NCBI GenBank assembly: GCA_029862005.1
Contig: JAOTYD010000001.1
Location: forward strand, 62,001 to 126,000
Length of the DNA: 64,000 nucleotides
From: Gammaproteobacteria bacterium
GTDB taxonomy: Bacteria > Pseudomonadota > Gammaproteobacteria > GCA-001735895
Direction: 5' to 3'
Below, one piece after another: positions 14,938 to 41,018 of this stretch (position 1 is the first letter of the stretch; each line of letters opens with the position of its first letter). A program made the position numbers and the translations under genes. Below the pieces are notes generated by a model. The model saw only the letters and a program-made list of their open reading frames with translations. It searched no databases and was not told where the DNA came from.

Positions 14938-15003
14938 TGATTTCTGTCAGATTTATTTTGTGAAATTATTCAAAATTGGACCTGAAACGGTGACCTGAAT
15001 CAC

Positions 15004-15480: not shown

Positions 15481-15556
15481 TTCGTGTCCTGTTCTCCTTA
15501 CGGTCAACGTTTTCAAGCCTCGTTGAACTCGACGTTATCAGGGGTATAGAGCACTG

Positions 15557-16875: not shown

Positions 16876-17273
16876 AAACTCTGCAGCGCGGTTTTTCGCT
16901 GATTACGGCAATATTCCTGCTGGTCGTCGTTGCCGCCCTGGTGGTCTATATGACCAATATACGCGCGGTACAGCAGACCACGCTGGTTTACGGGGTGCAG
17001 GGTGCACGGGCAACCCAGGCGGCTCGCAGCGGCATTGAATGGGGAATTTACCAGTCAATTGTCAATGGCAGCTGTGCCGGGTCGGCGAGCTTCACCGATC
17101 CTGCATTCGCAGGCTTTAACATCGAAGTCCAATGTGGCCAGACTACCCATATCGAAGGTACTACGCCGATCGATACGTTTCAGTTAACCGCGATCGCGAG
17201 CAGCGGCATCTATGGTTCGCTCGACTACGTTCAACGTCGAATCCAGGCAACCGTTTCTCAGGATCCGCCCTAG
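16872..17273 (+). CDS. mshP: MSHA minor pilin-like protein MshP
   Basis: 133 residues with a PilX/GspK-like N-terminus: MKTLQRG before FSLITAIFLLVVVAALVVYMTN, lacking Glu at position 5 as is usual for tip-cap pseudopilins. The segment RATQAARSGIEWGIYQSI is typical of the PilX/MshP family. It is the last gene of the msh locus here. No MshQ-like adhesin gene follows, although mshQ is next in Vibrio. Confidence 0.88.
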   Translation: MKTLQRGFSLITAIFLLVVVAALVVYMTNIRAVQQTTLVYGVQGARATQAARSGIEWGIYQSIVNGSCAGSASFTDPAFAGFNIEVQCGQTTHIEGTTPIDTFQLTAIASSGIYGSLDYVQRRIQATVSQDPP

Positions 17274-20591: not shown

Positions 20592-20619
20592 CAGTCCGTA
20601 ATATAACTGGAATAAAACG

Positions 20620-22200: not shown

Positions 22201-22210
22201 GAGATAACTG

Positions 22211-24331: not shown

Positions 24332-26034
24332 ACGCGGAAAACAAGCCCAAGCGTTTAGGCGAGATCCTGATCGATGAAGGTGTTATCACCGAAGATCAGC
24401 TGAACATCGCCCTGACCGAACAGAAGAAGGTTCACGAACCGCTAGGCAAGTTGCTGGTCAATCTGGGATTTGCGACCGAAGCCATCATGCGTTCGGCGCT
24501 CGGAGAAGCGCTCGAGCAGGAGAGCGTTGACCTGTCGCGCGTGGTACCTGATCCCGATGCGATCAAGATGATCAATTCGGATACCGCGCGCAAGCACAAG
24601 ATCATACCGCTCAACTATGACCCGATCCGCAGCACGTTGACGATCGCGATGTCAGATACCTTCAACCTGTTTACGCTGGACCGGATTCGAATTCAGATTG
24701 GTCAACATATTGAATTATTACCAGTACTTGCCGGCGAGGCTGAAATCTCCAACGCGATCGACCAGTTCTACGGTTACGAACTGTCGATTGATGGCATTCT
24801 GCGTGAAATCGAAACCGGGGAAGCCGACTACACCAATTACCAGGGTGATATCGAGGAGTATAGCCAGCCGCTGGTGCGTCTTGTCGACGTTATGCTTTCC
24901 GATGCGGTCAAGCGCGGCGCCTCCGATTTACACTTTGAACCCGAAGAGAGCTTCCTCCGCATCCGTTACCGTATTGATGGCGTGTTGCGCCAGATTCGAA
25001 GCCTGCACAAGACTTACTGGCCGGCGATCGCAGTACGTCTCAAGGTCATGGCGGACATGAACATTGCCGAAACCCGGGCGCCGCAGGATGGTCGTATTTC
25101 GCGCACCATCATCGGTCGCCAGATCGATTTCCGCGTTGCTTCTCAACCGACCATTCACGGTGAAAATATCGTGCTCAGGGTGCTCGACCGTGAGAAAGGT
25201 GTAATTCCACTCGAAAATCTGGAATTGCCCGCGGAGTCATTGCGTACACTCAAAATCATGATGTCGCGCCCGGAAGGTATCATCCTCGTAACCGGTCCAA
25301 CCGGTAGCGGTAAAACCACGACGCTATACTCGTTGTTGAACTATCTGAGCAGCGAGCAAATTAACGTCATGACACTCGAAGATCCGGTGGAATATCCGTT
25401 CCCCTTGATTCGACAGACCTCGGTTAACGAGGCTGCAGGCATGGATTTTGCGAGTGGAATCAAGTCGCTGATGCGCCAGGACCCGGATGTTATCCTCGTG
25501 GGCGAGGTGCGTGACGAGGAAACGGCTGAAATGGCGTTTCGCGCCGCCATGACGGGTCACCAGGTCTATTCGACGTTGCATACCAATTCCGCGATCGGTG
25601 CGCTGCCGCGACTTCGGGACATCGGTATTATCCCGGAAATCATGGCGGGAAATATTATCGGCGTCGTCGCTCAGCGCCTGATACGCAAGCTGTGCAAGTT
25701 CTGTAAAGTTGCTTACGAGCCCAGCAAGGAAGAAATGCAAATGCTCAGCAACTCTCGCGGTGATGTTCCCGCCAAGATTTACCGGGCTAAAGGTTGCACC
25801 AGCTGCGATAACACGGGTTTCAAAGGACGTATGGCCCTGCTCGAAATCCTGAAGATGAATTCGGACCTCGACGATCTCCTCGCGCATGGAGCGACCACTA
25901 AAGAGATTAGGGACGCGGCTTACAAACAGGGATTTTTCACGCTTGCCGATGATGGAATTCGTCACATCATCGAGGGCGTTACGTCAATCAAGGAAGTCGC
26001 GCGTGTTGCCGATCTGACCGAGCGGATGGAATAG
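24328..26034 (+). CDS. GspE/PilB-type assembly ATPase with MshEN c-di-GMP motif (second system)
   Basis: Intact 568-residue secretion/pilus extension ATPase. The N-terminal MshEN motif is perfect: R9-L-G11 through G18, L25, L29 and Q32. A second tandem copy begins LGKLLVNLGF but ends in Leu instead of Gln. The core has Walker A GPTGSGKTTT (near residue 322), Walker B DPDVILVGEVRDEET and His box MTGHQVYSTLHTNS. A tetra-Cys zinc site (CKFC ... CTSC) follows. By analogy with MshE, activity is probably stimulated by c-di-GMP. Followed after 2 bp by the platform gene. Confidence 0.95.
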   Translation: MNAENKPKRLGEILIDEGVITEDQLNIALTEQKKVHEPLGKLLVNLGFATEAIMRSALGEALEQESVDLSRVVPDPDAIKMINSDTARKHKIIPLNYDPIRSTLTIAMSDTFNLFTLDRIRIQIGQHIELLPVLAGEAEISNAIDQFYGYELSIDGILREIETGEADYTNYQGDIEEYSQPLVRLVDVMLSDAVKRGASDLHFEPEESFLRIRYRIDGVLRQIRSLHKTYWPAIAVRLKVMADMNIAETRAPQDGRISRTIIGRQIDFRVASQPTIHGENIVLRVLDREKGVIPLENLELPAESLRTLKIMMSRPEGIILVTGPTGSGKTTTLYSLLNYLSSEQINVMTLEDPVEYPFPLIRQTSVNEAAGMDFASGIKSLMRQDPDVILVGEVRDEETAEMAFRAAMTGHQVYSTLHTNSAIGALPRLRDIGIIPEIMAGNIIGVVAQRLIRKLCKFCKVAYEPSKEEMQMLSNSRGDVPAKIYRAKGCTSCDNTGFKGRMALLEILKMNSDLDDLLAHGATTKEIRDAAYKQGFFTLADDGIRHIIEGVTSIKEVARVADLTERME

Positions 26035-26036
26035 GC

Positions 26037-27242
26037 GTGCCGCTCTATCAATACAAGGCCATTGATGCCAGCGGCAAATTTATCTCGGGCAGTCTCGATG
26101 CCGGTAATATCAATGATCTCGAGGTGCGTCTTGAAAAAATGGAGATGGACCTCGTTACCTACAAACAAAAGGATCTGGGTTCAGACCTGTTTGGGCGCAA
26201 CAAGATCGGCCGCCGTGACTTAATCAACTTTTCGTTTTACCTCGAGCAACTAACCCGTGCCGGGGTGCCGCTGCTAGAGGGGCTAGCCGATTTACGTGAT
26301 GGCGAAGAGAATCCGACTTTTCGAGATATTGTTACCGGTCTGATTGAAGCGATCGAGGGTGGTAACTCGTTTTCGCAAGCGCTGGATCTATACCCCAAAG
26401 TTTTTGACGATGTATTCATCAGCCTGATCCGTGTAGGCGAGCGTAGCGGCAAGATGAGCGAGGTTCTGGTCGACATTACCGAAACCCTGAAGTGGCAGGA
26501 TGAACTGCTTTCCAAGGCCAAGAAAATAATGACCTATCCCGCGGTTATCGGCACGCTGGTGTTGTCGGTCATCATGTTTATGATGATCTTTGTTGTGCCG
26601 GACATCATGGATGCGATTGTCTCGCTGGGCGGAGAGATTCCGTTCGAAACACGAATGTTGATCATGGTGTCGAACTTTCTGATCGATTACTGGTACTTGG
26701 TGATTGCCGCACCTTTCGTGATTTTCTTTGTTCTCAAGTATCTCTACCGGACGAGCAGCAAGGCGCGCTTCCGACTGGATGGCCTGTTGCTGAAACTGTG
26801 GGTGATTGGTCCGGTAAATGAAAAGATCAAAATCTCGCGCTTCACGCGTTACTTTTCGCTGATGTTTGCCTCGGGAATTACGGTACTGGATGCAATCGAC
26901 CTGAGTAAGGGTGTCGTCAGTAACGCCGTGCTTGAGGACGGTATCGACCGCGCCTGGCAGCAGATTTCAGAAGGTAGCAGTATTAGCGAAGCGTTCAAGA
27001 ATATCGGGATATTCCCGCCACTTGTCGTACGCATGTTGCGGGTTGGCGAATCCAGTGGTCAGATGGACAAATCTTTGAATAACGTGAGCTACTTTTTTGA
27101 TCGTGACATCAACGACAGCATCGAGAAAATGGAGCCGGTATTGCAGACTTCCTTGATGGCAACTATCGGCATCATCGTTCTTTGGCTTGCACTTTCTGTA
27201 CTGGGGCCGATTTACGACACCATCTCGACGATCGATTTTTAA
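26037..27242 (+). CDS. GspF/PilC-family platform protein (second system)
   Basis: 401 residues from a GTG start 2 bp after the ATPase stop. Duplicated GspF domain: first FSFYLEQLTRAGVPLLEGLADL ... LIRVGERSGKMSEVL, second RFTRYFSLMFASGITVLDAI ... MLRVGESSGQMDKSL. Membrane helices lie near 172-195, 218-240 and 372-395. It is the inner-membrane partner of the preceding ATPase and parallels MshG in the first locus. Confidence 0.94.
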   Translation: MPLYQYKAIDASGKFISGSLDAGNINDLEVRLEKMEMDLVTYKQKDLGSDLFGRNKIGRRDLINFSFYLEQLTRAGVPLLEGLADLRDGEENPTFRDIVTGLIEAIEGGNSFSQALDLYPKVFDDVFISLIRVGERSGKMSEVLVDITETLKWQDELLSKAKKIMTYPAVIGTLVLSVIMFMMIFVVPDIMDAIVSLGGEIPFETRMLIMVSNFLIDYWYLVIAAPFVIFFVLKYLYRTSSKARFRLDGLLLKLWVIGPVNEKIKISRFTRYFSLMFASGITVLDAIDLSKGVVSNAVLEDGIDRAWQQISEGSSISEAFKNIGIFPPLVVRMLRVGESSGQMDKSLNNVSYFFDRDINDSIEKMEPVLQTSLMATIGIIVLWLALSVLGPIYDTISTIDF

Positions 27243-27252
27243 CGGTATAGAC

Positions 27253-28851
27253 ATGAGAAGAGTCCTATATTTCACAGGTTACAGAATGGTTGCGCAGGAA
27301 TGGTCCGGTCGTAAACTAATGAGCAGCGTTTACTTCGAACCCGATGACCAGGGCCTTGATCTGTTCAGTGCCTACCTGCGTTCATTCAAGAACGAGCCGG
27401 TGCGCCTGCTGGTTGATTTGATCGAAGAAGAATTCCGTCAAGTCAGGGTGCCGTTACTGAGAGGTTCCGATCGTCAGGCTATCCTGAATCGTAATTTTGC
27501 CAAGTATTTCCGCACCTCGGAATACAAGTTTGCGATATCGCAATCGGTGGAGAAGAAAACCCGCAAGGAAGAAAAGCTATTACTGATTGGTCTTACCAAT
27601 CAATACCTGCTTGAGCCTTGGCTCAAAATAATCGAAGAAACACGTACCCCGTTGTCAGGCATCATCAGCTTGCCCCTGTTATCTGAAAATTACATCAAGG
27701 AACTTCAGTCAGATAACAGGGCAGTAATCCTGGTTAGTCAACAGGTACCCAGCAATCTGCGTCAATCGGTCTTCGTCGATGGCAAACTGGTGCTGAGTCG
27801 TCTGGTTCCGATCGCAAGCTTTTACCAGGGTGATTATGCTTCTGATGTGCTGCGCGATGTCGAATCGACGCAGCGATACCTGATCAGCCAGCGCATTGTT
27901 GAGCGCTCGGAAACCGTGGCGGTCCACATTCTCACCAATAAACGGCATTTCGATAAATTGACGGTACGCTGTGAGCAGGAGAGTTACTTCGACTTCAAGA
28001 TTTATGAAATCAACCAGTTGCTTGAACGCGAAAAAATCGACGTTGATGACGAACAGGATTTCAGTTCGGGGCTTTATTGCTACCTGGCGAGTAAAAAATT
28101 AATGCTCAATCATTATGCCAGACCGAACGAACGCCGCTATTTTCAGCACCATCGTGCAGGACTGGCACTGCGTTTTGCCAGCATCGCGTTGCTTGCGCTG
28201 GGATTAGGCATGGCGTTAACCAGCGGGGTCAAAGGCTGGCTTTATCAGGACACCATCAACGAAACGACGCTGATCGAGCAAAAATACAAGGCCAAGTATA
28301 ATCAACTCAGCGAGAATCGGATTGATTCGACGACGTCGACCACGAGCATGCAGCATGTTGTGCAAACCGTGGACGCTATCCAGGATCGATACCTGCGGGA
28401 TCCGGAAGAATTGCTGGCCCTGATCAGTAACGATGTCAGCATTTTTCCCGACATTCGCGTCAAAAAGATCGACTGGTTTGTCTCGAACTATTCGGACAGT
28501 AAGGTCTATCGAGAAGTCAGCTGGGGCAAACCCAGAAAACGCAGGCGCACGACTGATAATAAGGCAAAGAACCTGCCTAAACCGAAAAAGGGATATTTTG
28601 AAATCGCATTGGTTGAGGGCGAATTCCTCAATTTTGACGGCAACTATCGTTATGCACTAAGCGCAGTAGAAGACCTCGAAAAAACGTTGGCCGAATCGGG
28701 GAAATACTATTCGGTTGAAATCACTAAGCGTCCACTGAATATAGAATCGGAGAATCAACTGGCTGGCGATGCGGGCACAGGGCGCAGGGACAGTGTGTCG
28801 GTTGCTGAACTAGCGTTTCGTGTTGTCAGGGAGGTGCCAGAGAATGAATAA
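27253..28851 (+). CDS. GspL/PilM-N-like alignment protein (second system)
   Basis: 532 residues from the ATG at 27253; the frame extends upstream to 27187 but that part lies inside the platform gene. The N-terminal about 310 residues look like a divergent actin-like PilM/MshI domain. A membrane helix follows (about 318-338; ALRFASIALLALGLGMAL), then a coiled coil and a periplasmic domain of about 170 residues. The layout is that of GspL, one protein doing the work of PilM plus PilN, whereas the first locus has two separate genes for these parts. Overlaps the next, PilO-like gene by 8 bp. Confidence 0.7.
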   Translation: MRRVLYFTGYRMVAQEWSGRKLMSSVYFEPDDQGLDLFSAYLRSFKNEPVRLLVDLIEEEFRQVRVPLLRGSDRQAILNRNFAKYFRTSEYKFAISQSVEKKTRKEEKLLLIGLTNQYLLEPWLKIIEETRTPLSGIISLPLLSENYIKELQSDNRAVILVSQQVPSNLRQSVFVDGKLVLSRLVPIASFYQGDYASDVLRDVESTQRYLISQRIVERSETVAVHILTNKRHFDKLTVRCEQESYFDFKIYEINQLLEREKIDVDDEQDFSSGLYCYLASKKLMLNHYARPNERRYFQHHRAGLALRFASIALLALGLGMALTSGVKGWLYQDTINETTLIEQKYKAKYNQLSENRIDSTTSTTSMQHVVQTVDAIQDRYLRDPEELLALISNDVSIFPDIRVKKIDWFVSNYSDSKVYREVSWGKPRKRRRTTDNKAKNLPKPKKGYFEIALVEGEFLNFDGNYRYALSAVEDLEKTLAESGKYYSVEITKRPLNIESENQLAGDAGTGRRDSVSVAELAFRVVREVPENE

Positions 28852-29440
28852 GATAGACTGGTTTTACCTGAGGCGACCCCTGATCATGTTTGGGGTGGCA
28901 ATCCTGATTGCAGCAGCACTCGTGGTCGCGGGTTTCCAGTATGAAAAGGCGCGGCAGGAAGAATACGAAAAAGCGGTTTCCACGTTACGCTCAACTCATA
29001 AACTTTACAGCAATATTATCAACGATATTGACCTGCTCGAGCAGTACCGCAATCTGTATAACGGGTACAAAGCTTCGGGGTTGATTGGCAAGGAACGCCG
29101 CCTGAGCTGGATCGAAAGTCTGGAAACCACCAACGAGGTTTTGCGTTTGCCGACTCTGACCTACAACCTGCTTCCCCAGGAAGAATTCAAGCGCCCTGGA
29201 TTCAAGGTAAAACGCGGCGTTACGGTAAAGAGTTCGCCGATGAACCTGAACATTGGTTTACTGCACGAAGAAGACCTGTTTGCGCTGTTGGAAGGATTGC
29301 GCCTGTCGATAAAAAACCTATTTACGGTAGATAGTTGCTCGATCAGTCGGAATACCAATATCAATCGCTCGCTTGATACAAAAAGAGCAAACCTGAGTAC
29401 CGATTGCACTTTTCGCTGGGTGACCATCGATGCAAGTTAA
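28844..29440 (+). CDS. PilO/MshJ-like alignment protein (second system)
   Basis: 198 residues from the ATG at 28844, within the stop of the previous gene (ATGAATAA). It has a membrane helix at about 13-33 (LIMFGVAILIAAALVVAGF), then a coiled coil (about 35-70) and a small periplasmic domain ending with two Cys (VDSCSI, TDCTF). Sequence similarity is weak. The call rests on topology and on its place between GspL-like and PilP-like genes, the same order as mshI-J-K. Overlaps the next gene by 11 bp. Confidence 0.6.
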   Translation: MNKIDWFYLRRPLIMFGVAILIAAALVVAGFQYEKARQEEYEKAVSTLRSTHKLYSNIINDIDLLEQYRNLYNGYKASGLIGKERRLSWIESLETTNEVLRLPTLTYNLLPQEEFKRPGFKVKRGVTVKSSPMNLNIGLLHEEDLFALLEGLRLSIKNLFTVDSCSISRNTNINRSLDTKRANLSTDCTFRWVTIDAS

Positions 29441-29891
29441 AAGCGTAAAACAACAGGCAAACACGGGGCTGGTAGCCTTGCTTTTGTTGGTGACGCAAGT
29501 GGCAAGCGCGGCCGAATTGTCGACATTGTTCACGACGCCAGAAGAGCGCCAGATTATCAATTCAAATCGTTATAAGAGTGACGAGATAAAGCAAAAACAA
29601 CTGGTTGTGGTGGAGGAACCGATCGAAGGGCCAATTCAGGCTAGGTTCCAGGAAGAAGTTATCCGCGAATATAAAATTTCTGGAATTACGATTTCGCGCG
29701 ACGGATCACGCACCGTATGGATTAATTCGCAGGCCTACGAGGATGGCGCGGCACTCGATAACAACAGCAAGATCAGGGTAATGATGAACGGCGATATCCG
29801 GGTCAGGATTACCGCACCAGATGGTAAGCATTACTATGCTGCCAGTGGCGAAACAATTGAGATTACGTTCTTGGCCCCTGTCGAGAATTAG
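29430..29891 (+). CDS. Periplasmic PilP/MshK-like protein (second system)
   Basis: 153 residues with a signal peptide (about 1-28, ending ASAAE). Then LFTTPEERQIINSNR, a linker, and a small beta domain: EYKISGITISRDGSRTVWINSQAYEDGAAL and IRVRITAPDGKHYYAASGETIEI. The ...GITISRDGSRTVWING pattern is the one seen in PilP/GspC-type HR domains that contact the secretin. Position after the PilO-like gene supports this. No name is justified by sequence alone. Confidence 0.55.
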   Translation: MQVKSVKQQANTGLVALLLLVTQVASAAELSTLFTTPEERQIINSNRYKSDEIKQKQLVVVEEPIEGPIQARFQEEVIREYKISGITISRDGSRTVWINSQAYEDGAALDNNSKIRVMMNGDIRVRITAPDGKHYYAASGETIEITFLAPVEN

Positions 29892-29893
29892 TC

Positions 29894-31942
29894 GTGATGG
29901 GTAGCGGCGACAATAGGCAAAACGGTTACGTACTATTGTTGACACTGTTGGCGTTGATGGGAATCGGTGGCGTTGTGGTTGCTGGCTTCACCCAGGATGC
30001 CAAGCAGCAGGTTGAACACGAGAAATATCTTCACAACAAGCGCGTACTCGCTGAGGCCAAACAGGCCCTGCTGCAATTCGCTTATAACTACCCGGCGACT
30101 AACCAGCGCGGACCGGGGCGCCTTCCCTGTGCGGATACTGATAATGATGGTACACCGAACACGGTTATTGGCACCTGTATACAGCTGGGGAGACTGCCCT
30201 GGGGCCAGCCTGATTTAAATCTCTACGATATACGTGACGCCGACGGGCAACGATTGTGGTACGCGGTATCTGATAGTTTTGCAACCAATGTTGCAGGTGG
30301 TAATGTCATCAACAGCGACGCTTTCGGTACGATCACCATTCGCGATCAGGTTGGCAATATCATTTTTGATGGCTCGACTGGAAACGGCGTGGCCGCGGTG
30401 ATTATCGCTCCTGGCGCCCCCACTGCCCGCGCCGGAGTCACTCAGGATCGCAGCATTGCCAACGCCGATGATGCTTTTGATACCACTGCGGATACGGATC
30501 CCGGTATTATCAACCCTGTTAATTATCTTGACCTTTTTTTCGGCATCGAGGACAACGCCCAGTTCGCTCAGAGCGCAACCAACGGCTTTATCCTCGGGCG
30601 GGTTGACGATCTGACGTCGGCGTCGATTATCGTCAATGATCAATTCGCGGTGATCACCGCCGCGGAAGTGATCGAAGTCGCGGAAAAAGCGACCCTGCAG
30701 GCTTATCGAAATGCGTTTACGGCCTACGATTTGCGAATCGATAACGACGTGGCGGCTGGCGATAATTACCCCTGGTTGTATAACTACGCGGTCAATGATT
30801 TGGGCGGTGGATACCCGGAGCTCGACGACTATCCATCCGACCCGGTGTTTGCAACCGAGCAGGCTAATTTTCTGGGGCGTATCGGGCGCGTCCCGTCCAT
30901 TTACAGCAATTACTTTATTGAAGCGGGAAGTCAGCCTATCGAGTCCGAGCTTCAATTTGATTTCAGTCTGAGCTACCCGGTTACCCCTACGAAGGTCGGT
31001 TTCGATCAGCTTACCCCGATAGTTACAACCGGTACTTTCGACTTTAACGCGGGAGCTCAGCACGTCTTTAGCGCGATATCGACACTGCCACAAACGATTT
31101 CCTTTAATGATATCGCGGATGTGGTCGGGGATGACGGCCGCTTATCGGCTACCGCAATCGTCAATGAGACTTTCCAGGTCGAACGCTGGTTCTGGGATGA
31201 GAATGCTCTGGGCCCAGCTACCGGCATTTGGACCATATGCCCTGCCGGTGGGGACCAGTTGTCGGACTGCAATCGTGATGCGATCGGTAATCCGACACCG
31301 GGAAGCCCCAATAACCTGGCCGCTGTCGAGGCACTTCGCGTGATTGCCGAAATAGATTTTCCGGTGGGTACGCCGGTCAATTTCGATATGGATTACACCA
31401 ATGCGCCTGTTATAACAGCTACCAGTGCCGCCGATGGCGGCAGTCACGCGACGATCCAGGGTGTTTATCTTGGGGCGGATATGTTGGCTGTACCGGTAAC
31501 CTTAAGCTATGAAATCGATCGGTTTTACTTAAATAATTTCGACATACAGGAAACCGGCACCCTAGTGGCCGGCGATATGACTGTCGGTAACGTTACACTT
31601 GGTTTGCGCTACTACCCGGAGCTGCCCGACTGGGCCTTTAGCGATGCCTGGTATGACAGTATTCAGATGGCTTACGCCAGCGATTATCTGCCGGGCGGAG
31701 CTGGCGGACCCTGCACCGCGGGAACCGACTGCCTGCAGGTCGAGAACTTGGCCGGCGGTAATAATGACAAGATATCGATCCTCGCGATAGCCGGTCAACA
31801 TGACTGGGTGGATGAAGCTTTGGATAATTTAAGTAATGATGTTAGCGATGTTTTCGACCTTGAGAACGATGATATAGATGATAACTTCGATGTCAGGGCC
31901 TTGAACGGCAATGATAAAATCCTTGTGGTGGACGAGTTATGA
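29894..31942 (+). CDS. Giant GspK/PilX-like prepilin (682 residues)
   Basis: Start is GTG at 29894 or the adjacent ATG at 29897. The N-terminus has a short polar leader ending in Gly11 followed by YVLLLTLLALMGIGGVVVAGF, a class III-like segment without Glu5, as in GspK/PilX tip pseudopilins. After the alpha1 helix comes an RLPC motif at 76-79 followed by a Ca-loop-like DTDNDG, then about 600 residues of beta-rich, Asp/Asn-rich extracellular sequence with few Cys. The size is far beyond usual pseudopilins (150-350). A role as tip adhesin or cap is inference. Overlaps the following prepilin by 4 bp. Confidence 0.75.
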   Translation: MMGSGDNRQNGYVLLLTLLALMGIGGVVVAGFTQDAKQQVEHEKYLHNKRVLAEAKQALLQFAYNYPATNQRGPGRLPCADTDNDGTPNTVIGTCIQLGRLPWGQPDLNLYDIRDADGQRLWYAVSDSFATNVAGGNVINSDAFGTITIRDQVGNIIFDGSTGNGVAAVIIAPGAPTARAGVTQDRSIANADDAFDTTADTDPGIINPVNYLDLFFGIEDNAQFAQSATNGFILGRVDDLTSASIIVNDQFAVITAAEVIEVAEKATLQAYRNAFTAYDLRIDNDVAAGDNYPWLYNYAVNDLGGGYPELDDYPSDPVFATEQANFLGRIGRVPSIYSNYFIEAGSQPIESELQFDFSLSYPVTPTKVGFDQLTPIVTTGTFDFNAGAQHVFSAISTLPQTISFNDIADVVGDDGRLSATAIVNETFQVERWFWDENALGPATGIWTICPAGGDQLSDCNRDAIGNPTPGSPNNLAAVEALRVIAEIDFPVGTPVNFDMDYTNAPVITATSAADGGSHATIQGVYLGADMLAVPVTLSYEIDRFYLNNFDIQETGTLVAGDMTVGNVTLGLRYYPELPDWAFSDAWYDSIQMAYASDYLPGGAGGPCTAGTDCLQVENLAGGNNDKISILAIAGQHDWVDEALDNLSNDVSDVFDLENDDIDDNFDVRALNGNDKILVVDEL

Positions 31943-32802
31943 GCAGGAAACAAGGCCAACTGGGTTTTACCCTGGTCGAAATTGCAATCGTACTGTTGAT
32001 TGTGGGAATTTTACTCGGCTATACGGTGGCTTTGTTTCCGAAGCAGCAGGACTTGAAAAAGTATCGCGCGGTCGAGGTGGAAATGGACCGGGTGATCGAG
32101 GCGATCATCGGCTTTGCGCAGGTTAACGGTCGCTTACCCTGCCCGGCAATTCCGAACTCGAACGGCAACGAAGATGGCGGTGGTGGAGTCGATTGTAACA
32201 ACTACGGCGGCTTTGTCCCGGTAAATACACTGGGGCTTACCGGAAAACTCAATCAGGATACCCTGTTGCTCGATCCCTGGGGTAATCCCTACCGGTATTA
32301 TGTGACCAATAATGATGCCAATGGTGCGGGTGGTTCCGATTTTGTGCGAAATGGGCAAATGCGTACCGTTGGATTGGTGGATGTGTTACCTGGTCCACCG
32401 GATGGATACATTGATCTCGACGGTCGCTACCTGATCTGCGATGACAATGGCACCACGACCGATGACGAGTGCACCGGGGCGAATCAAGTGTTCGGCAATG
32501 CCAACGGTGTCGGAGCTTATGCGGGCGCGCCATTTGTGTTGCTTTCGCAGGGCAAGAACTGGAATGCGGTTGTTCCGGTCAACGATGAACTGGAGAACAT
32601 TGGAAGTGTTTTAACTACTACCAACCTGGGCATGGTACTCGGACCCAGTGGCAACGAGTACCTGCTCAAGGATGTTGGCGTCGGTCAAACCACGTTCGTA
32701 CGTCGTCCCACCGGTTTTGCCGACGATTTCGACGACGTCGTCAGGTGGGCATCACCGCATGTCCTCTACTCGAAGATGATCGAAGCAGGCCAACTCCCCT
32801 GA
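31939..32802 (+). CDS. Type IV prepilin (287 residues, RLPC-type; second system)
   Basis: Canonical prepilin N-terminus: leader MSRKQGQLG, then FTLVEIAIVLLIVGILLGYTVALF with Glu5. It shares the RLPC motif (65-68) at the end of alpha1 with the giant prepilin just upstream. It also has DPWGNPYRYYV, a GspG-like feature, and a long Gly/Asn/Asp-rich globular part with four to five Cys. Overlap with the giant prepilin gene suggests coupled translation. It is the last rightward gene before the histidine kinase on the other strand. Confidence 0.87.
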   Translation: MSRKQGQLGFTLVEIAIVLLIVGILLGYTVALFPKQQDLKKYRAVEVEMDRVIEAIIGFAQVNGRLPCPAIPNSNGNEDGGGGVDCNNYGGFVPVNTLGLTGKLNQDTLLLDPWGNPYRYYVTNNDANGAGGSDFVRNGQMRTVGLVDVLPGPPDGYIDLDGRYLICDDNGTTTDDECTGANQVFGNANGVGAYAGAPFVLLSQGKNWNAVVPVNDELENIGSVLTTTNLGMVLGPSGNEYLLKDVGVGQTTFVRRPTGFADDFDDVVRWASPHVLYSKMIEAGQLP

Positions 32803-32920: not shown

Positions 32921-34600
32921 TCACTCCCCCAGTTGCTGAATTAAATTGAAGCAAACACGACCGTGTTCATTCTGGCTGAGTTCGAGTTCGTAGTTGAACG
33001 CCAGTGCCATGATGGCCGACTGGTACAAGCCGATACCCATGCCACTCCCGGACGATACCGGTTGCATAAACAGGTTCTTTTCGATTTCGGGTTCGATCGC
33101 CTCGCCGTCATCGCAAACGGATAACACGATAACGTCTTTGCTGGATAACAGGCGCAGATCGATCAGCTTAGCGGATGGTTTGTTGAGCGCGTTGTTGATC
33201 AGATTATCGGCGACGCTGTCGAACAAATCGACCGGTACCGCCACGTTATTGTCAATATCGTGGTGAAAATGCAGGCGCGCGATTGCATTATGCCGCTTGG
33301 AAATGCGTTTGATCCACTTTTCGCAATCGACCAGGGTGATCTGGGTGTTGAGCTTTGGTGCTTTCAGCTTGTTGAGCGTATTTTCGAGGCGAATCCCAAT
33401 TTGATTCAGGTTGGTTTGCAACAGTTTTTGTGAATCTGCGGTTCCACTATCCGTATCGAGAATATCAATCGAGGTTTTGATTGATTGCAGTATGTTCTTG
33501 ATGTCATGCGTCAGCCGGGCGCCGGTGTGGTGGATGGTAGCGAAATGTTCCTGCGCGCGTATTTTTTCCTGATTTAGTTTGGCCAGATAGAACTGGTAGG
33601 CCATGCGGACTAAAAGAAAGGTGTGTTGCTCGAGTGCAGTGCCTGGATCGGCCTTGAAGTAAAGTACAACGCTCAGTTTGTCATCTAGTTGGTGTTTGAG
33701 CCGGGTGCCGATTTTTTCACCGGCGCCGATCTTGAAGTGCTCAAATGACCATTCAATCGCGTTGAGCCAGTCGTTGTTGACCAGGTGTTCGCAGGCGGCC
33801 TCGAGATATTCGCTAGGCGTCAGGTAGCGCTCTTCAATCAGGGTGGTCAAAGTGTTAATCCAGGCTTCAAATGGTCCCCCGATCGTCATTGCATAGCGAT
33901 TCCACAAAACTCCAATGCCGGAATAACCCACTCCTGGATTCCAGAACCAGCTAATGCCGATAGTCAGGGTTGCAACGATAAATACCGTCAGCAGCAGGCC
34001 ATCAATGTAATCAACCCCGTAAAGCAGGTTGATGACAATACCACCCAGTAACACGATAAACAGCAGGGTTGATGCCAGCAGTCCATGCATCAAGTCTACC
34101 TGGCTGCGGCCCTGCGTCTGGTGGTCGGGATTGGGCGCAAAGAAAAACAGCAGCACCGGCACCAGGATCACGGTTTGCATGTACTCTGCAAATAAGGATG
34201 GTAACTGGATCTGTGGAAACGCTTCCGGAATCACTCCAACCGACATTTCGAGCGTGATAATCAGCAGCGCCAGCAGGTCAAAGGATCGGAATGCGGTCTG
34301 ACTGAGTAAGCGGCTGCCAATCAAACCGGACAAAATGAGGCCAAAGAAGACCAATGATTCGTCGGGAAAAGAATAAGCCAGCCCCATGAATACCAGTGCC
34401 AAAAAAACAACTGGCGCCCGCTTGATTGTTACTTTCTTGCTCCACAGTGGTTGCCAGAGCAGGAATAGGCCATACAATATGAAAGTTAGACTAAACTGCT
34501 GTAAAGGCTGATCCACCGCCCAGATCAGTAAATGGAAAAGCAACAAGATGGAGGCCAGGATTTGCTGGCCATGTTGCAGTAACGAATTGATTCTAATCAA
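32921..34600 (-). CDS. Membrane sensor histidine kinase
   Basis: 559 residues. About seven hydrophobic helices occupy roughly 1-230, a cytoplasmic linker follows, then the kinase core: H-box RLTHDIKNILQSI (HDxKN type, near residue 360), N-box DNLINNAL, G1 CDDGEAIEP and G2 GSGMGIGLYQ. The annotated start is TTG at 34600 without a clear RBS, so the N-terminus is uncertain. No regulator gene is adjacent on its strand; the NtrC-family regulator at 17484 in the same locus is the best candidate partner. It resembles the PilS/PrsK style (polytopic sensor, HATPase near the C-terminus). Confidence 0.85.
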   Translation of the reverse strand: MIRINSLLQHGQQILASILLLFHLLIWAVDQPLQQFSLTFILYGLFLLWQPLWSKKVTIKRAPVVFLALVFMGLAYSFPDESLVFFGLILSGLIGSRLLSQTAFRSFDLLALLIITLEMSVGVIPEAFPQIQLPSLFAEYMQTVILVPVLLFFFAPNPDHQTQGRSQVDLMHGLLASTLLFIVLLGGIVINLLYGVDYIDGLLLTVFIVATLTIGISWFWNPGVGYSGIGVLWNRYAMTIGGPFEAWINTLTTLIEERYLTPSEYLEAACEHLVNNDWLNAIEWSFEHFKIGAGEKIGTRLKHQLDDKLSVVLYFKADPGTALEQHTFLLVRMAYQFYLAKLNQEKIRAQEHFATIHHTGARLTHDIKNILQSIKTSIDILDTDSGTADSQKLLQTNLNQIGIRLENTLNKLKAPKLNTQITLVDCEKWIKRISKRHNAIARLHFHHDIDNNVAVPVDLFDSVADNLINNALNKPSAKLIDLRLLSSKDVIVLSVCDDGEAIEPEIEKNLFMQPVSSGSGMGIGLYQSAIMALAFNYELELSQNEHGRVCFNLIQQLGE

Positions 34601-34617
34601 AGGTGCAGGAAACTCAT

Positions 34618-35397
34618 ATGCTCGCTCAAACTATATCATTGTTCCGTTACCTGATGCTTGGAATTATGAGTAGACGATTGCTTGTGTTGCTGATACTTCT
34701 CGTGCTTGCCTCGGTATTGACGGGAAGCTTCATCAGTGAACTGGCAATCATTAATGGCAAGGCGATCGCGAGTGCTTTTATCGCCGATTTTTTACGCTAC
34801 AGCCTTGCGCTGCTGGCCCTGTTGACGATAGCCATCAGCGTTGCCGAAGACTATGAGTCGGGCCAGTTTGAGCGTTTATTGACAATGCCTCTGGCACGTT
34901 GGCAATACGTAGCGGCACAAACCCTGGTGATTGCGAGCCTATGCCTGTTGCTGGTATTACCGGTATTGATGCTGGTGTCGATGTACAGCGGTATCGCAAT
35001 CGGATTTTACTGGGCCACGGCCCTGTGGATGGAGCTGTTTTTACTGGGTGTGCTCGGATTGCTCGCTATCTTGAGCCTCGAAAAAATACCGCAGGCGGTG
35101 TTCTTTGCGCTGGCTATATACCTGCTGGCAAAATTGTCCGGACTGATAACCCTGATGTTGAGCGAAACGGTCAGACTATCAGAAGGCAGTGCTACTAGCC
35201 GTGCGATTGAATTTATTTTCAGCTCGATACTCTATATCGTACCGGGCGTCAATAGCTTTGCCGAAAATGATGTTTTCTTTGGCGGCGTCGATCTGTTGAC
35301 AACGCTGGGGGACCAGTTTGTCACGGTGGCAATCTATGCGCTGTTCATCCTGGCGGTCTGCCTGGTTGATTTTTATCGCAAGGAAATCAGTTTCTAG
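34618..35397 (+). CDS. ABC-2 type transporter permease
   Basis: 259 residues from the ATG at 34618, which has AGGA 7 bp upstream; a GTG at 34603 is possible. About six membrane helices in the ABC-2/NosY pattern (LLVLLILLVLASVLTG, then SLALLALLTIAISVAEDYESGQFERLLTMPLARWQYVAAQTLVI). The EDYESGQFERLLTMPL segment is typical of this permease family, near the coupling helix. Its ATPase is probably the gene at 36986, separated by an accessory gene and a prepilin gene. Start lies only 17 bp from the divergent kinase start. Stop overlaps the next GTG (TAGTG). Confidence 0.85.
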   Translation: MLAQTISLFRYLMLGIMSRRLLVLLILLVLASVLTGSFISELAIINGKAIASAFIADFLRYSLALLALLTIAISVAEDYESGQFERLLTMPLARWQYVAAQTLVIASLCLLLVLPVLMLVSMYSGIAIGFYWATALWMELFLLGVLGLLAILSLEKIPQAVFFALAIYLLAKLSGLITLMLSETVRLSEGSATSRAIEFIFSSILYIVPGVNSFAENDVFFGGVDLLTTLGDQFVTVAIYALFILAVCLVDFYRKEISF

Positions 35398-36134
35398 TGC
35401 ATCGATCCGAACGTCCGATTCTACAGTTACCGCGACCCGTACTGCTGGGATTCCTGGTTTTACTGGGCATTCAGATCTGCTACTACCACACTGGTAAGTC
35501 ACGCTTCGAAACCAGCTTCAGAGCGCTTGCGCCACCGTTTGACGCCTCGATTTATCGCAGTATCGCGATGGGGTCGGAACAATTGCTGGGATACTTGCTG
35601 GCGGTCCGCCTGCAGCTGCACGATAGCCAGGCCGGGCAACACTTCGTCTACAGCCAGATCGATTACCATGTGCTGATCGATTGGCTCGAGCAGATCACTC
35701 TGGTCAGCCCGGGGACAGAGTACCCAATGCTGCTGTCGTCCCGGATTTACACGACAACGCGAGATCATCAGCGGCTGCGATTGATTCTCGATTTTATCCA
35801 GCGCCGCTTCGACGACAATCCCCAGCTACACTGGCGCCGGTTGGCGGAGGCCAGCGTGATTGCCAAGCACCGTCTCGCCGACCTGGAGTTGGCGCTGAAA
35901 CTGGCCGAGAAAATCGCACAGCAACCGACCCACCTGAAAATCCCGCCCTGGGCGCGAGATATCCAGTTCTTATTGCTTGCCGACCTGAATGAACTGGAAT
36001 CAGCAATCGCAATCGTCCAGTCATTGCTGCAGACGAGTGCGGTGCACGACCCGGACGAAAGGCGTTTTCTCGAAAGTAAGCTGTTGGAATTTCAACAAAA
36101 GCTGACTGAATCCCGACAATCAACCCTCAATTGA
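35397..36134 (+). CDS. Membrane-anchored helical protein between ABC permease and prepilin
   Basis: 245 residues from a GTG that overlaps the permease stop. One N-terminal membrane helix (about 13-30; PVLLGFLVLLGIQICYY), then an all-helical, TPR/solenoid-like domain (for example YHVLIDWLEQITLVSP, LHWRRLAEASVIAKHRLADLELALKLAEKIAQQP, LNELESAIAIVQSLL). I do not recognise a named family. Position next to an ABC permease, a prepilin and an ABC ATPase suggests an accessory subunit, in the manner of PilG in the Myxococcus PilGHI transporter; that is analogy, not homology shown here. Confidence 0.75.
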   Translation: MHRSERPILQLPRPVLLGFLVLLGIQICYYHTGKSRFETSFRALAPPFDASIYRSIAMGSEQLLGYLLAVRLQLHDSQAGQHFVYSQIDYHVLIDWLEQITLVSPGTEYPMLLSSRIYTTTRDHQRLRLILDFIQRRFDDNPQLHWRRLAEASVIAKHRLADLELALKLAEKIAQQPTHLKIPPWARDIQFLLLADLNELESAIAIVQSLLQTSAVHDPDERRFLESKLLEFQQKLTESRQSTLN

Positions 36135-36180
36135 GTAAAAAATCTGCTGTGTGGCTAAGAATTACATAGATTTATTCGTT

Positions 36181-36197
36181 TTGGCATGTTAAATGCA
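36181..36197 (+). promoter_or_regulatory. Sigma-54 promoter of the prepilin gene at 36238
   Basis: TGGCATG-TTAA-ATGCA (36182-36197) matches the sigma-54 consensus TGGCACG-N4-TTGCA, with GG at 36183-36184 and GC at 36195-36196 exactly 10 bp apart. The expected start of transcription is near 36208, giving a leader of about 30 nt and a good RBS (GGGAGA) before the ATG. A full NtrC-type activator is encoded in the same locus at 17484. Confidence 0.8.
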
Positions 36198-36237
36198 TAC
36201 ATATTTTTAGACACAACCGAAACATAGGGAGAATTAC

Positions 36238-36900
36238 ATGCAGTTAATAAAACAAAAAGGTTTCACGCTTGTAGAAATCGCCATCGTACTGGTTATCGTG
36301 GGCCTGCTGATAGGCGGCGTCCTGAAGGGCCAGGAAATGATTACCAATGCCAAGCTCAAGCGTATCGAAAGCGATAACGCGGGTATCGCTGCGGCCATGT
36401 TTTCTTACCAGGACCGCTATCTGCAGCTGCCGGGGGATGACAGTGACGCCGTAAATAGGTTCACAGTATACGCGCCCGCCGATAACCCCAATGGTAACGG
36501 CGACGGCGTTATTGGTCTTGGAAATGACTGGGATGCTCCCATAGCTGCCCCTCCCTGGGCTGTCGGCGCTGATGAAACGCTAAAATTTTATGCTCATTTG
36601 CGCGCGGCGGGACTGGTTCCAGGCGATCCGAAAGACACTACCCGTCCATCCAATGCCTACGGTGGCCAAATCGGGGTCCAGGATGGATCACTGGCGATTT
36701 CCGGTCATGTCACCATTTTTGGCGCAATTGAGGGGCCGATCGCGAAAATTATCGAGGGCAGGCTCGATGACGGGACCCCAGATTCCGGGCGTATCCAGTC
36801 GGATGTACCTCCCGCACCAATGGATGCTGGCGCGGTTAATACCCAGGCCGGCCTGCCTTATGATGACAATGTGCGCTACAATATGGCTTTTCGTCTATAA
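36238..36900 (+). CDS. Type IV prepilin, likely major subunit of the second system
   Basis: 220 residues, canonical: leader MQLIKQKG before FTLVEIAIVLVIVGLLIGGVL (Glu5). KGQEMITNAKLKRIESDNAGIAAAMFSYQDRYLQLPGDDSDAVNRF follows, the alpha1-to-LPGDD signature of a widespread prepilin family. The globular part has almost no Cys. It has its own sigma-54 promoter, a strong RBS (GGGAGA 7-12 bp before ATG) and a dedicated terminator, so it is a separately controlled and probably abundant subunit. It lies between ABC transporter genes. Confidence 0.9.
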   Translation: MQLIKQKGFTLVEIAIVLVIVGLLIGGVLKGQEMITNAKLKRIESDNAGIAAAMFSYQDRYLQLPGDDSDAVNRFTVYAPADNPNGNGDGVIGLGNDWDAPIAAPPWAVGADETLKFYAHLRAAGLVPGDPKDTTRPSNAYGGQIGVQDGSLAISGHVTIFGAIEGPIAKIIEGRLDDGTPDSGRIQSDVPPAPMDAGAVNTQAGLPYDDNVRYNMAFRL

Positions 36901-36921: not shown

Positions 36922-36953
36922 AATGGCCTGCCCGTTCGGCGGGCCATTTTTGT
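36922..36953 (+). terminator. Rho-independent terminator after the sigma-54 prepilin gene
   Basis: TGGCCTGCC (36924-36932), loop CGTTC, GGCGGGCCA (36938-36946), then TTTTTG. A 9-bp stem with one T-G wobble sits directly downstream of the prepilin stop. Confidence 0.88.
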
Positions 36954-36985: not shown

Positions 36986-37705
36986 ATGACCCCGGCGCTC
37001 TCGATTTCCAATATCAGTTACTCGGTTTCGGGCCTCGAAATCCTTAAAGCCCTCAACCTGGAAGTGGACGAACAGCGATACTGCGCGATCGCGGGTGTAA
37101 ACGGTGCCGGCAAATCAACCCTGATCAAGCTAATTCTCGATCTAATCCGGCCTCAACCCGGTGGTGAGATACGTGTCTTCGGTTTCGATAACCAGGATCG
37201 GCAATGCCGCGATCAACTCACTTACCTGCCGGAAAAATTCAACGTCAAGAAAAACATTACCGGGCGCCAGTACCTCGATTTTATCGCCGCGGTTTACCAT
37301 CAGAATCCCGGCCGTAAAAAAATAGACGAACTCGCTGAACGCCTCGACTTTCCGTCCCGGCGGCTGGATTCCAGGGTAGGCGGGTACTCCAAGGGCATGG
37401 TGCAGAAACTGGGATTGGTAAGCTGCTTCATGCTTGAGCGGCGGTTGCTGATCCTCGATGAACCCTTAAGCGGTCTCGACCCGCGTGCGCGTTACCGGTT
37501 CAAGGAATTGATGCGCGATGAAAAATCTTCCGCGCGCACGGTTTTGTACAGCACCCATCTGCTCACCGATGCTGAAGATCTTTGCGATCGGTTCGGAATT
37601 TTGCATGATGGCGAAATGAAGTACCAGGGTACCCCGGACGATTGCCTGCAGCACTACCAGGCGGAAACGCTTGAACAAGCCTACATGAAATGCATTTCCG
37701 AATGA
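36986..37705 (+). CDS. ABC transporter ATP-binding protein
   Basis: 239 residues with all ABC motifs: Walker A GVNGAGKST (about 38-46), Q-loop-like LPEKFNVKKNITG, signature YSKGM, Walker B LLILDEPLSGLDP, and switch STHLLTDAEDLCDR. It belongs to the CcmA/NosF-like group that partners with ABC-2 permeases, so it probably powers the permease at 34618. The ATG has no close RBS: GGACGGAG lies 21 bp upstream, and an in-frame TAA at 36980 rules out an earlier start. The M. xanthus PilH ATPase of the pilGHI transporter is a functional analogue near a pilin gene. Confidence 0.9.
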   Translation: MTPALSISNISYSVSGLEILKALNLEVDEQRYCAIAGVNGAGKSTLIKLILDLIRPQPGGEIRVFGFDNQDRQCRDQLTYLPEKFNVKKNITGRQYLDFIAAVYHQNPGRKKIDELAERLDFPSRRLDSRVGGYSKGMVQKLGLVSCFMLERRLLILDEPLSGLDPRARYRFKELMRDEKSSARTVLYSTHLLTDAEDLCDRFGILHDGEMKYQGTPDDCLQHYQAETLEQAYMKCISE

Positions 37706-37795: not shown

Positions 37796-38440
37796 CTAGC
37801 CGAGTTCCTTTAATTTACGCGTCAGCGTATTACGACCCCAGCCGAGCAATCGTGCGGCATCCTGTTTACGTCCACGCGTGGCCTCGAGGGCGCAGTCGAG
37901 CAGGGTTTTTTCAAAGGTCCGGGCGGCATTTTTCAGAATGTCGGTTTCGCCCTGGGACAATTGCTGCTTCGCCCACAGGCGCAGCTGTTCCTGCCAGTCG
38001 CTGATTTGGGCCGGCAGTCGCGATGGCCCCGGGCTGGCTTCGATCACCGGGTCGCAGGCGCGTGCCACGAGCTCGAGCGCGTCGTCGATATCGAAGGGTT
38101 TGGGAAGATACTCGAAAGCGCCATCGTGAAACGCCTGCACCGTGGTATCGAGATCGGTATAGGCCGTCATCACGATGATCGGTGTTTGTGGTGATATGTT
38201 TTTGATTTGCTTGAGCAATTCAAATCCGTTGATTCCGGGCATGCGGACATCGGTTATAATCAGGCTTGGTCGCGCCCCGGGATCGGTGCGCTTGAAACTT
38301 GCCAGTGCTACCGAGCCGGATTCAAAGGCCCTCACCTGGTAGCCATTATTGGTCAGGGTCTTTTCCAGTACCCAGCGCATTGATTGATCATCATCGATGA
38401 CCCAGATTAAGACAGGTACTTTATTGGTCGCTTGAGTCAT
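37796..38440 (-). CDS. ntrC: NtrC-like nitrogen response regulator lacking the AAA+ domain
   Basis: 214 residues instead of about 470. The receiver (about 8-128) is intact, with DDD at 16-18, phospho-acceptor D64 in ITDVRMPG, T92 and K114. A linker (about 130-172) with DWQEQLRLWAKQQLSQGETD follows, then the NtrC-type Fis domain (about 175-213) with RKQDAARLLGWGRNTLTRKLKELG, almost identical to the end of enteric NtrC. The whole sigma-54-contacting ATPase domain (GAFTGA, Walker A/B, about 240-250 residues) is absent, with no frameshift or leftover. Overlaps ntrB by 4 bp. It can still be phosphorylated and bind DNA but should not activate sigma-54 promoters. Confidence 0.92.
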   Translation of the reverse strand: MTQATNKVPVLIWVIDDDQSMRWVLEKTLTNNGYQVRAFESGSVALASFKRTDPGARPSLIITDVRMPGINGFELLKQIKNISPQTPIIVMTAYTDLDTTVQAFHDGAFEYLPKPFDIDDALELVARACDPVIEASPGPSRLPAQISDWQEQLRLWAKQQLSQGETDILKNAARTFEKTLLDCALEATRGRKQDAARLLGWGRNTLTRKLKELG

Positions 38441-39516
38441 GTTTTTTCCATGGGCAAAATGGTGCTGAAGGTCGTTCCGGTTTCCGAACTGTGCAGGTGG
38501 ATGGTACCCCCGTGTCGGGAGATGATTTCCTGGGCAATCGGCAGACCCAGGCCACTGCCTTCGGGCCTGTCGGTAATCATCGGCAGAAATATAGTTTCGC
38601 CGAGATCTGGCGGAATGCCGCGGCCGCTATCAATGATATCGACCTGTACCACCAGCGGATGAGTGACCCGGCCGATTGTAAACTGACGTCCTACGCGGGT
38701 TTTGAAGATTACCGCACCGCTTCCGTCGATTGCCTGTACCGCGTTGCGCACGATATTCAGGAAGGCCTGGATCAGCATGTCACGATCCGCCATGATTTCC
38801 GGAATGCTCGGGTCGTAATCGCGCTCTATCGTTATTCGATCGGGCTCGGCCGCCAGTATGATCCTGCGGATATGCTCCAGCACCTCGAGGATATTTACCG
38901 GTTTGCGCTGCATTTTGTTGCCGGGCACCAGCATCTTGCTGGTCAGGGATTGCAGGCGATCGACCTCGCTGACGATGATCTCGGTATACTCGTTCCACTC
39001 GGGACGATCGAGCGCGCGTTGTAGCAATTGTGCCGCACCGCGAATGCCACCCAGCGGATTGTTGATCTCGTGCGCGATCCCGCGCGCGAGCTGCTGAGTG
39101 GCCTGTTTCTGCAACTGATTGAGTTCGTCCTGTGCAAACTGTGCCTGGTGCTCGTGCTGACGAATTTCAATGACGAGCGCGTCATCCGACTGCCCCCCGT
39201 CGAGCGGATAGATGCTGTAGCTGGCCGTAATGGCCTTACCATTTTCAAGAGTGATCACCGCTTCGTGCTCGGTAAACGCAATTGAGTCGAGTTTCAGCTT
39301 CGAGAGGATACTGGAAGGTTCTACCTGGCTCAGCAGGCTGTCGAATCTGCGCCCGATCAGGCTCGAGGCGCTGCTTTCGAACAGCACTTCTGCGGCTGTG
39401 TTAACGTAGGTGATGCAACGCTCGCCATCGAGACAGAGTATCGACGAGTTAAGCGTATCGAGAATACGATAACCGTTGTCGATCTCCTGGACCGAATTTA
39501 GTTTTGGCTGCTGCAT
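38437..39516 (-). CDS. glnL: Nitrogen regulation sensor kinase NtrB (GlnL)
   Basis: Soluble histidine kinase/phosphatase that controls NtrC phosphorylation in response to PII. 359 residues: PAS domain (about 15-120), H-box with H149 in ARGIAHEINNPLGGIRGAAQLL (the NtrB signature, here EINNP), N-box FLNIVRNAVQAI, and G boxes DSGRGIPPD and GSGLGLPIAQ. It is complete even though its partner NtrC lacks the AAA+ domain. Separated from glnA by a strong terminator, so ntrBC probably has its own promoter. Confidence 0.95.
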   Translation of the reverse strand: MQQPKLNSVQEIDNGYRILDTLNSSILCLDGERCITYVNTAAEVLFESSASSLIGRRFDSLLSQVEPSSILSKLKLDSIAFTEHEAVITLENGKAITASYSIYPLDGGQSDDALVIEIRQHEHQAQFAQDELNQLQKQATQQLARGIAHEINNPLGGIRGAAQLLQRALDRPEWNEYTEIIVSEVDRLQSLTSKMLVPGNKMQRKPVNILEVLEHIRRIILAAEPDRITIERDYDPSIPEIMADRDMLIQAFLNIVRNAVQAIDGSGAVIFKTRVGRQFTIGRVTHPLVVQVDIIDSGRGIPPDLGETIFLPMITDRPEGSGLGLPIAQEIISRHGGTIHLHSSETGTTFSTILPMEKT

Positions 39517-39608: not shown

Positions 39609-41018
39609 CTAGCAGCTGTAGTAAAGGTCAAACTCAACCGGATTGGTCGCGAGGCGAAGACGCTGTACTTCCTCGTCCTTCAGTTCGATGTAGCCGTCGA
39701 TCACGTCATCGGTGAAGACGCCTCCGGCCTTGAGGAATTCGCGATCCTGGTCCAGCGCATCCAGCGCCTGGTCGAATGAAAAGGCGACCTGTGGAATTTC
39801 GGCCTCTTCCTCGGGCGGTAAATCGTAGAGATCCTTGTCCATCGCTTCACCCGGGTGCAGCTGGTTCTTGATGCCATCCAGTCCCGCCATCATCAGTGCG
39901 GCAAACGCGAGATAAGGATTGGCGGTTGAATCCGGGAAGCGTACTTCGATACGGCGTGCTTTCGGATTACTGACGTAGGGAATACGTATCGAAGCGGAGC
40001 GATTGCGCGCGGAGTAGGCGAGCATGACCGGAGCTTCGAAACCCGGTACCAGTCGTTTATAGCTATTGGTGGCAGCATTGGCAAAAGCATTGATCGCGCG
40101 CGCGTGCTTGATCACCCCGCCGATGTAGTACAACGCGGTATCCGATAAACCGCCATAGCCTTCGCCGGCGAACAGGTTAACCCCGTCCTTGACCAGGGAC
40201 ATGTGCACGTGCATACCGTTACCGTTGTCACCGACCAGTGGCTTCGGCATGAAGGTTGCGGTCTTGCCGTAGCTGTGTGCGACGTTGTGGACACAGTATT
40301 TCAGCACCTGGATTTCATCGGCTTTACGCACCAGGGTATTGAATTCCACACCTATTTCACACTGTCCCGCGGTTGCGACCTCATGGTGGTGAACCTCGAC
40401 CTTGAGGCCCATTTCTTCCATCGCCAGGCACATTGCCGAGCGAATGTCGTGTAACGAATCCACCGGGGGTACCGGGAAATAGCCCCCTTTAACGCCTGGC
40501 CGATGTCCGATGTTGCCGTCTTCGTACATTTTAATCGAGCTCCAGGCGGCTTCCTCGGACTCGATCTGGTAAGAGCAATGCCCCATTTCGGTCGACCACT
40601 TGACGTCGTCGAAGACAAAAAACTCGTTTTCCGGGCCGAAGTAAGCAGCATCGGCGATTCCGGATGCCTTCAGGTAAGCCTCGGCGCGCTCGGCAATGGA
40701 GCGAGGGTCGCGCTCGTAGCCTTCACCCGTGGCGGGCTCGACCACGTTACAGGTAAGGTTGATGGTGGGTTCATCGGTAAACGGATCCAGCACCGCGGTT
40801 GCCGGGTCGGGCATCAGGATCATGTCGGATTCGTTTATGCCTTTCCAGCCAGCCACCGAGGAGCCGTCAAACATTTTGCCTTCGGTAAAGGTATCTTCCC
40901 CGAGGGTACTTGCCGGGACCGAGACATGCTGCTCCTTTCCCTTGGTATCGGTAAAGCGGAAATCGACGAATTTCACGCCGTACTCGTTAATCTTGCTCAA
41001 CACATCAGACGCAGACAT
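39609..41018 (-). CDS. glnA: Glutamine synthetase type I
   Basis: Dodecameric cytosolic enzyme making glutamine from glutamate, ammonia and ATP. 469 residues, the normal GSI-beta length. Motifs: [15 protein letters not shown] near the N-terminus, [30 protein letters not shown] and [10 protein letters not shown]. The adenylylation site is the Tyr in [10 protein letters not shown], so activity is probably also controlled by GlnE. The RBS GGAGAA precedes the ATG. Its upstream region holds a sigma-70-like promoter and NtrC-type sites. Confidence 0.98.

Follow-up and report, generated by a model that had tools for sequence, protein, structure and literature searches.

A putative sigma-54 promoter and conserved tandem enhancer upstream of a prepilin gene in a gammaproteobacterial type IV pilus locus

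Genes and signals at the prepilin locus

The DNA analysed here is a 64-kb stretch of a gammaproteobacterial genome, referred to throughout as the window. Two pilus clusters are adjacent within it, at 5232-17273 and 17484-37705, and the first contains a match to MshL above the curated cut-off (6939-8636). The second is bracketed by a regulator and a kinase. The regulator (17484-18878, plus strand) is of the NtrC type, with a receiver, an AAA+ domain carrying GAFTGA and a Fis-type helix-turn-helix (HTH), and is the likely activator of the system. About 14 kb away is a membrane histidine kinase (32921-34600, minus strand), which is its likely partner and is assigned from HATPase_c, weak similarity to PrsK, and synteny. 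The original prediction placed a GAFTGA-containing regulator and an orphan kinase in this locus, and both are present. Between them lies the second, MSHA-like type IV pilus cluster (18882-32802, plus strand), with a conserved gene order that includes an AAA ATPase, a secretin, a TPR protein, a PilB/MshE-type ATPase, a PilC/MshG-type protein, and a prepilin at 31939. It also holds proteins that we take to be like M, O, P, and MshQ, names which we assigned without a family match.

An ABC module stands on the other side of the kinase. It comprises an ABC-2 type permease-like protein (34603-35397, plus strand; a weak TIGR00025 match of 23.8 bits, and synteny), an accessory gene (35397-36134, plus strand) whose 3' end holds the putative enhancer described below, and an ABC transporter ATPase (36986-37705, plus strand; PF00005, 79.6 bits, and synteny). 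Within it is the prepilin gene of interest (36238-36900, plus strand), which is single copy in its own genome and encodes 220 amino acids with an N-methylation motif (Pfam PF07963, 28.2 bits). Its AlphaFold model is poor, with a mean pLDDT of 52.5. Genes of nitrogen regulation follow. The NtrC here (37796-38440, minus strand) consists of receiver and HTH only, in 213 amino acids without an AAA+ domain, and stands behind glnA-ntrB (ntrB at 38437-39516, glnA at 39609-41018). This short form is kept in relatives of the genus, and in sister genera an NtrC-like gene of greater length occupies the same place. In other families too, ntrB and an NtrC-like gene come after the pilin module (L228, L236, L237, L242, and L248).

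The candidate sigma-54 (-24/-12) promoter of the prepilin occupies 36181-36197 on the plus strand and reads TTGGCATGTTAAATGCA, that is, a T followed by TGGCATGTTAAATGCA at 36182-36197. It contains the TGGCA/TGCA core, in which GG and GC are separated by ten bases (GG-N10-GC), and its distance to the prepilin ATG is 56 bp. The predicted transcription start, placed from promoter geometry 12 nt after the GC, is 36208, which would give a leader of ~30 nt with a ribosome binding site, AGGGAG, at 36226-36231. An intrinsic terminator of 11 pairs plus a T tract follows the gene (36922-36948, plus strand). The original description of TGGCATG-N4-ATGCA, with exact spacing, a short leader, a good ribosome binding site, and a private terminator, therefore agrees with the DNA in site, spacing, position, and each accompanying element. 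There is one rpoN gene in the genome. At the level of sequence, the observation of a sigma-54-type site before this prepilin is confirmed, and sigma-54 control of the gene is supported.

Within the window, TGGCA-N7-TGCA is unique to 36181-36197, and the same site has the top score (16.6) with a hand-entered sigma-54 matrix. A match in a single sequence is nevertheless weak evidence and not decisive by itself, because ten simulated windows yielded 8 chance sites scoring at least 16, spread over 6 of the windows (~0.8 per 64 kb). Across the genome, exact TGGCAYRNNNNWTGCW occurs at 11 sites on both strands, the promoter at 36181-36197 included, compared with 4 for the reversed control. The claim that such a signal precedes one prepilin only holds true within the window, where none of the other prepilin genes scores above 8.7 in the 300 bp upstream. 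The MshA-like pilin gene (14430-14834, minus strand) has a best score of -2.1 over that distance, and the values for the remaining genes are -2.1 (15004), 0.7 (15557), 8.7 (16009), 2.5 (16872), and 2.4 (31939). A site at 14355 on the plus strand, scoring 15.5, was rejected as a promoter of the MshA-like gene, as it lies beyond the 3' end of that minus-strand gene.

Conservation of the promoter and a tandem enhancer

Conservation across homologues decides whether the sigma-54 site is real. Homologous pilins were taken from 143 relatives, 51 of which had a match, and from contigs of named genomes (25 loci); one named carrier is the Olavius algarvensis Gamma 3 endosymbiont. A site scoring at least 11 was present in 33 of 61 distinct homologous prepilin upstream regions, compared with 0.76 expected from shuffles; this count leaves out L037 and L064, which are without the N-terminal motif, and L069, whose start was not found. 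The distance from site to start in close orthologues is mostly 53-66 bp. Neither promoter nor enhancer was present before paralogous pilins encoded at other places in these genomes, away from kinase-ABC neighbours (6 distinct proteins: L057/L067, L068, L070, L071, L072, and L073). One contig in this set (L055) is labelled Rhodobacter sp., and its pilin protein is identical to that of the gammaproteobacterial L054; the label is probably a binning or labelling error.

A second set of loci was assembled from the kinase, and is independent of the first in starting point and genomes, with some families shared. The kinase was searched for in 369 genomes of the class and was present in 49, from which 38 previously unused loci were taken. 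A prepilin stood on the divergent side in 23 of these, representing 13 families; the other 15 had no prepilin open reading frame (ORF) on that side, several being cut by contig ends. Counting the prepilin with the best site where a locus has several, we found a sigma-54 site no more than 150 bp from the start in 21 of the 23, compared with 0.14 expected, none in the reversed control, and 9 of 148 other ORFs of the same prepilin-bearing loci. In the remaining two (G194 and G286) the sole sigma-54 site is more than 260 bp away. One genome (G253) carries two kinase-pilin loci (L236 and L238), both with a sigma-54 site, scoring 13.1 and 19.6.

A search for an enhancer upstream of 36181, proposed together with the original prediction, yielded a candidate at 36082-36118. 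Alignment of the promoters of relatives revealed two 16-bp palindromes of the form TGTYG-N6-CRACA, 21 bp apart. In the window these are TGTTGGAATTTCAACA at 36082-36097, within the 3' end of the accessory gene, and, 21 bp after it, TGACTGAATCCCGACA at 36103-36118, which has two mismatches. They are followed by a 62-nt spacer with a conserved A/T-rich block (36119-36180, plus strand). This is the sole tandem match in the 64 kb at up to 3 mismatches. Among the 33 site-bearing promoters, 29 have a palindrome that departs from the consensus at one position or none (0.6 expected) and 25 have the tandem pair 21 bp apart (0.02 expected), and in the large majority of relatives with the pair the first palindrome starts 98-102 bp before the TGG. 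In the later, kinase-based set, a palindrome matrix trained solely on the window's family reached p<0.05 for an enhancer in 16 of 23 loci, and in the other 7 none was recognised.

The strict enhancer-plus-promoter pattern, which requires TGTTG without mismatch and is thereby limited to 15 of the 143 genomes, occurs exactly once in each of those 15, and the reversed control gave 0. Fourteen of the matches are directly before the homologous pilin and the fifteenth is at a contig end, so that under this pattern the predicted regulon is apparently one gene. Taken singly, TGTYG-N6-CRACA shows no enrichment across the genome (17 occurrences versus 16 in the control), and the informative signal is the tandem or the enhancer-plus-promoter combination only.

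The position of the enhancer inside the end of a coding sequence raises the question of which is conserved, the DNA or the protein. In the enhancer region of 18 stretches, from species that are not independent, TTG encodes 12 of 12 leucines (19% elsewhere in the gene) and CAA encodes 15 of 15 glutamines (36% elsewhere); L023 and its copy L049, with an open frame of less than 400 nt, were excluded. This uniform codon choice suggests conservation at the level of the DNA rather than the protein. In three genomes (G048, G131, and G051) the part of the preceding gene that aligns does not extend over the palindromes. Two others (G384 and G177) have the kinase and the pilin, with its promoter and enhancer, but not the ABC genes. 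Between enhancer and promoter in the window, a search with the sequence that we take to be the IHF consensus gave two weak matches, with 2 mismatches each, and none better.

Regulator, kinase, and related systems

The gene order around the kinase recurs widely. Of 30 stretches taken 3' of the kinases, 20 contain a pilus cluster and 10 do not; in all 18 cases where this end of the cluster was visible, the regulator adjoins the cluster's first gene, the other two stretches ending at a contig edge. The distance between regulator and kinase in these stretches is ~12-16 kb where measured, with one cut by the stretch end. Immediately upstream of the cluster's first gene, a regulator orthologue is likewise present in G029, G051, G106, G110, G126, G131, and G133, and the regulators of G072, G136, and G048 do not adjoin MshM-like genes. 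In G249, the sole such case, the orthologues of regulator and kinase are ~1 kb apart, and the recognition segment is the same, NRTTLYS. These segments are alike throughout (NRTTLYS/G, with variants NRTHFYS, NRTHLYS, NRSTLYS, and HRTTLYS) and differ from those of true PrsR (SRPTLYS) and of a second NtrC-type regulator of the same genome, on contig C16. Outside the family, 24 genomes with a pilin match divide into 6 with both site and regulator, 3 with the regulator only (G072, G126, and G136), 2 with the site only (G041 and G068), and 13 with neither. The association (one-sided Fisher p=0.013, in genomes that are related and with a site call that partly depends on the cut-off) is supportive of the link between regulator and promoter, and is not proof of it.

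Pseudomonas, Geobacter, and commensal Neisseria are known to regulate pilins through RpoN together with a two-component system, according to the available parts of the sources (PMC6058289, PMC2725144, and PMC6528607). The original prediction suggested PilSR-like on/off control of the main subunit of the second system, and this stands in part: a sigma-54 promoter, a likely activator in 17484, and a kinase of the same system are all in place, but the surroundings are not those of PilSR. The likeness to PilS/PilR-pilA of Pseudomonas aeruginosa, Geobacter, and Myxococcus lies in the sigma-54 pilin promoter, the NtrC-type response regulator, and the membrane kinase. However, PilS and PilR are an adjacent gene pair, whereas here the pilus cluster separates the kinase from the regulator. 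In the available excerpt on Geobacter, pilR adjoins pilA and PilR has 54 predicted loci (PMC2725144), in contrast to the apparent one-gene regulon here. The PilR elements, quoted in the accessible part of another source as TGTN11AGA/GTCT (PMC6058289), differ from the tandem TGTYG-N6-CRACA. No PilR model is among the NCBIfam matches listed, and a separate NtrC-type pair on contig C16 adjoins two other prepilins; by position, its regulator is the better PilR/PilSR candidate.

The best NCBIfam models for kinase 32921 and regulator 17484 are those of PrsK and PrsR. Neither assignment was retained: 17484 scores 341.3 bits against TIGR02915, with a cut-off of 502.6 and other regulators of the genome at 330-363, and 32921 scores 51 bits against TIGR02916, with a cut-off of 300. 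A true PrsR (636.1 bits) and PrsK (485.6 bits) are on contig C53 of the window's own genome (G000; L161/L178). Repeated TGTAAA-N5-TTTACA boxes accompany PEP-CTERM loci of that genome, with an exact match at 5 of the 7 examined (L192-L198; an eighth, L199, gave no ORF and is outside the count). The motif of Haft (2006) is described, in the part of the paper available, as having a TTTACA end, occasional repetition, and a mean spacer of 62.8 nt (PMC1569441), and the genome's boxes fit it as described rather than by its logo. The pilin promoter shares this layout of repeated palindrome and ~62-nt spacer with different letters, and the regulators have a related HTH; PrsK/PrsR controls PEP-CTERM genes, whereas the target here would be a pilin.

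Two further systems can be compared by description. For pilE of commensal Neisseria, the excerpt consulted reports the Nps/Npa two-component system, an enhancer, and RpoN (PMC6528607), all of which, with the pilin, have a counterpart here; it also places an IHF site between enhancer and promoter, whereas here no IHF match has fewer than 2 mismatches. PilGHI of Myxococcus is called ABC-transport-like in the accessible text (PMC6060248), and the likeness, drawn from that description and from gene order, is that of ABC genes beside pilin and regulators.

Several other explanations can be set against activation of the prepilin by 17484. The promoter may be real and its activator a different enhancer-binding protein, such as PrsR on C53, the candidate PilR on C16, or others, as the genome has seven full proteins of this class and, for PrsR, the promoter geometry is similar, with a repeated 17-nt motif and a mean spacer of 62.8 nt in the part of the source available (PMC1569441), compared with 62 nt here. 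On the other hand, the sequence upstream of the pilin has at least 4 mismatches to the PrsR box, and of all these regulators it is the 17484 orthologue that accompanies the locus, the others being encoded elsewhere; we regard this explanation as unlikely.

The NtrC site is TGCACC-N5-GGTGCA, and an AAA+ domain is needed for sigma-54 activation. Both facts weigh against activation by NtrC of the adjacent glnA-ntrB-ntrC operon, which would couple the pilin to nitrogen status and is suggested by the position of ntrBC, which follows the module both in the window and in several families besides: the palindrome differs from this site, and NtrC in the window's genus is without the AAA+ domain, yet promoter and enhancer are kept. 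This coupling is very improbable. Least credence of all is given to a chance -24/-12 match with the pilin using a different promoter. Simulated windows do produce sites of this strength, as described above. Against chance stands the constancy of the site, which keeps its position across many families and is accompanied by an enhancer that is conserved as well; the paralogous pilins have neither element, and no sigma-70-like site is reported before prepilin 36238.

A candidate switch for one pilin

These observations point towards 17484 as the likely activator of prepilin 36238. The kinase 32921 would phosphorylate the regulator, which would bind as dimers to the palindromes at 36082-36118, ~two helical turns apart and ~100 bp upstream, and sigma-54 RNA polymerase would then transcribe the prepilin from 36181-36197. 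Promoter and enhancer, with their conservation and geometry, can be read from the DNA, and so can the recurrence, across many families, of regulator and kinase genes in one place with the pilus cluster and the pilin. From this arrangement we infer the steps of phosphotransfer, binding, and transcription. Taken as a whole, the circuit from kinase through regulator, tandem enhancer, and sigma-54 to the prepilin, which may be a major subunit, is in our judgement probable. Regulator and kinase, bracketing the second pilus cluster, would form the system's own switch, apparently for one gene.

Functionally, the simplest reading is that the circuit resembles PilSR, is of separate descent, and ends in one pilin. 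We also lean, with modest conviction, towards a wider proposal, that this is a third, undescribed gammaproteobacterial lineage of sigma-54 two-component systems beside PilSR and PrsKR. It would be associated with a second pilus and an ABC module, would use the tandem TGTYG-N6-CRACA for an apparently pilin-only target, and in the window's family would have its enhancer in the coding end of the ABC accessory gene. A search of open-licence PMC literature found no paper on this locus. The lineage itself appears to be new, as do its enhancer code, the bracketing of a pilus cluster by regulator and kinase, and the restriction to what seems to be a single target.

What began as a single consensus match has become a circuit that can be tested in a widespread type of pilus, with an exact promoter, an exact enhancer, a named activator, and a kinase. 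The presence in one cell of two sister sigma-54 systems with different boxes may help in studying how Fis-type HTH domains choose their DNA (NRTTLY versus SRPTLY). If the third lineage is real, a whole machine would be armed by making one subunit.
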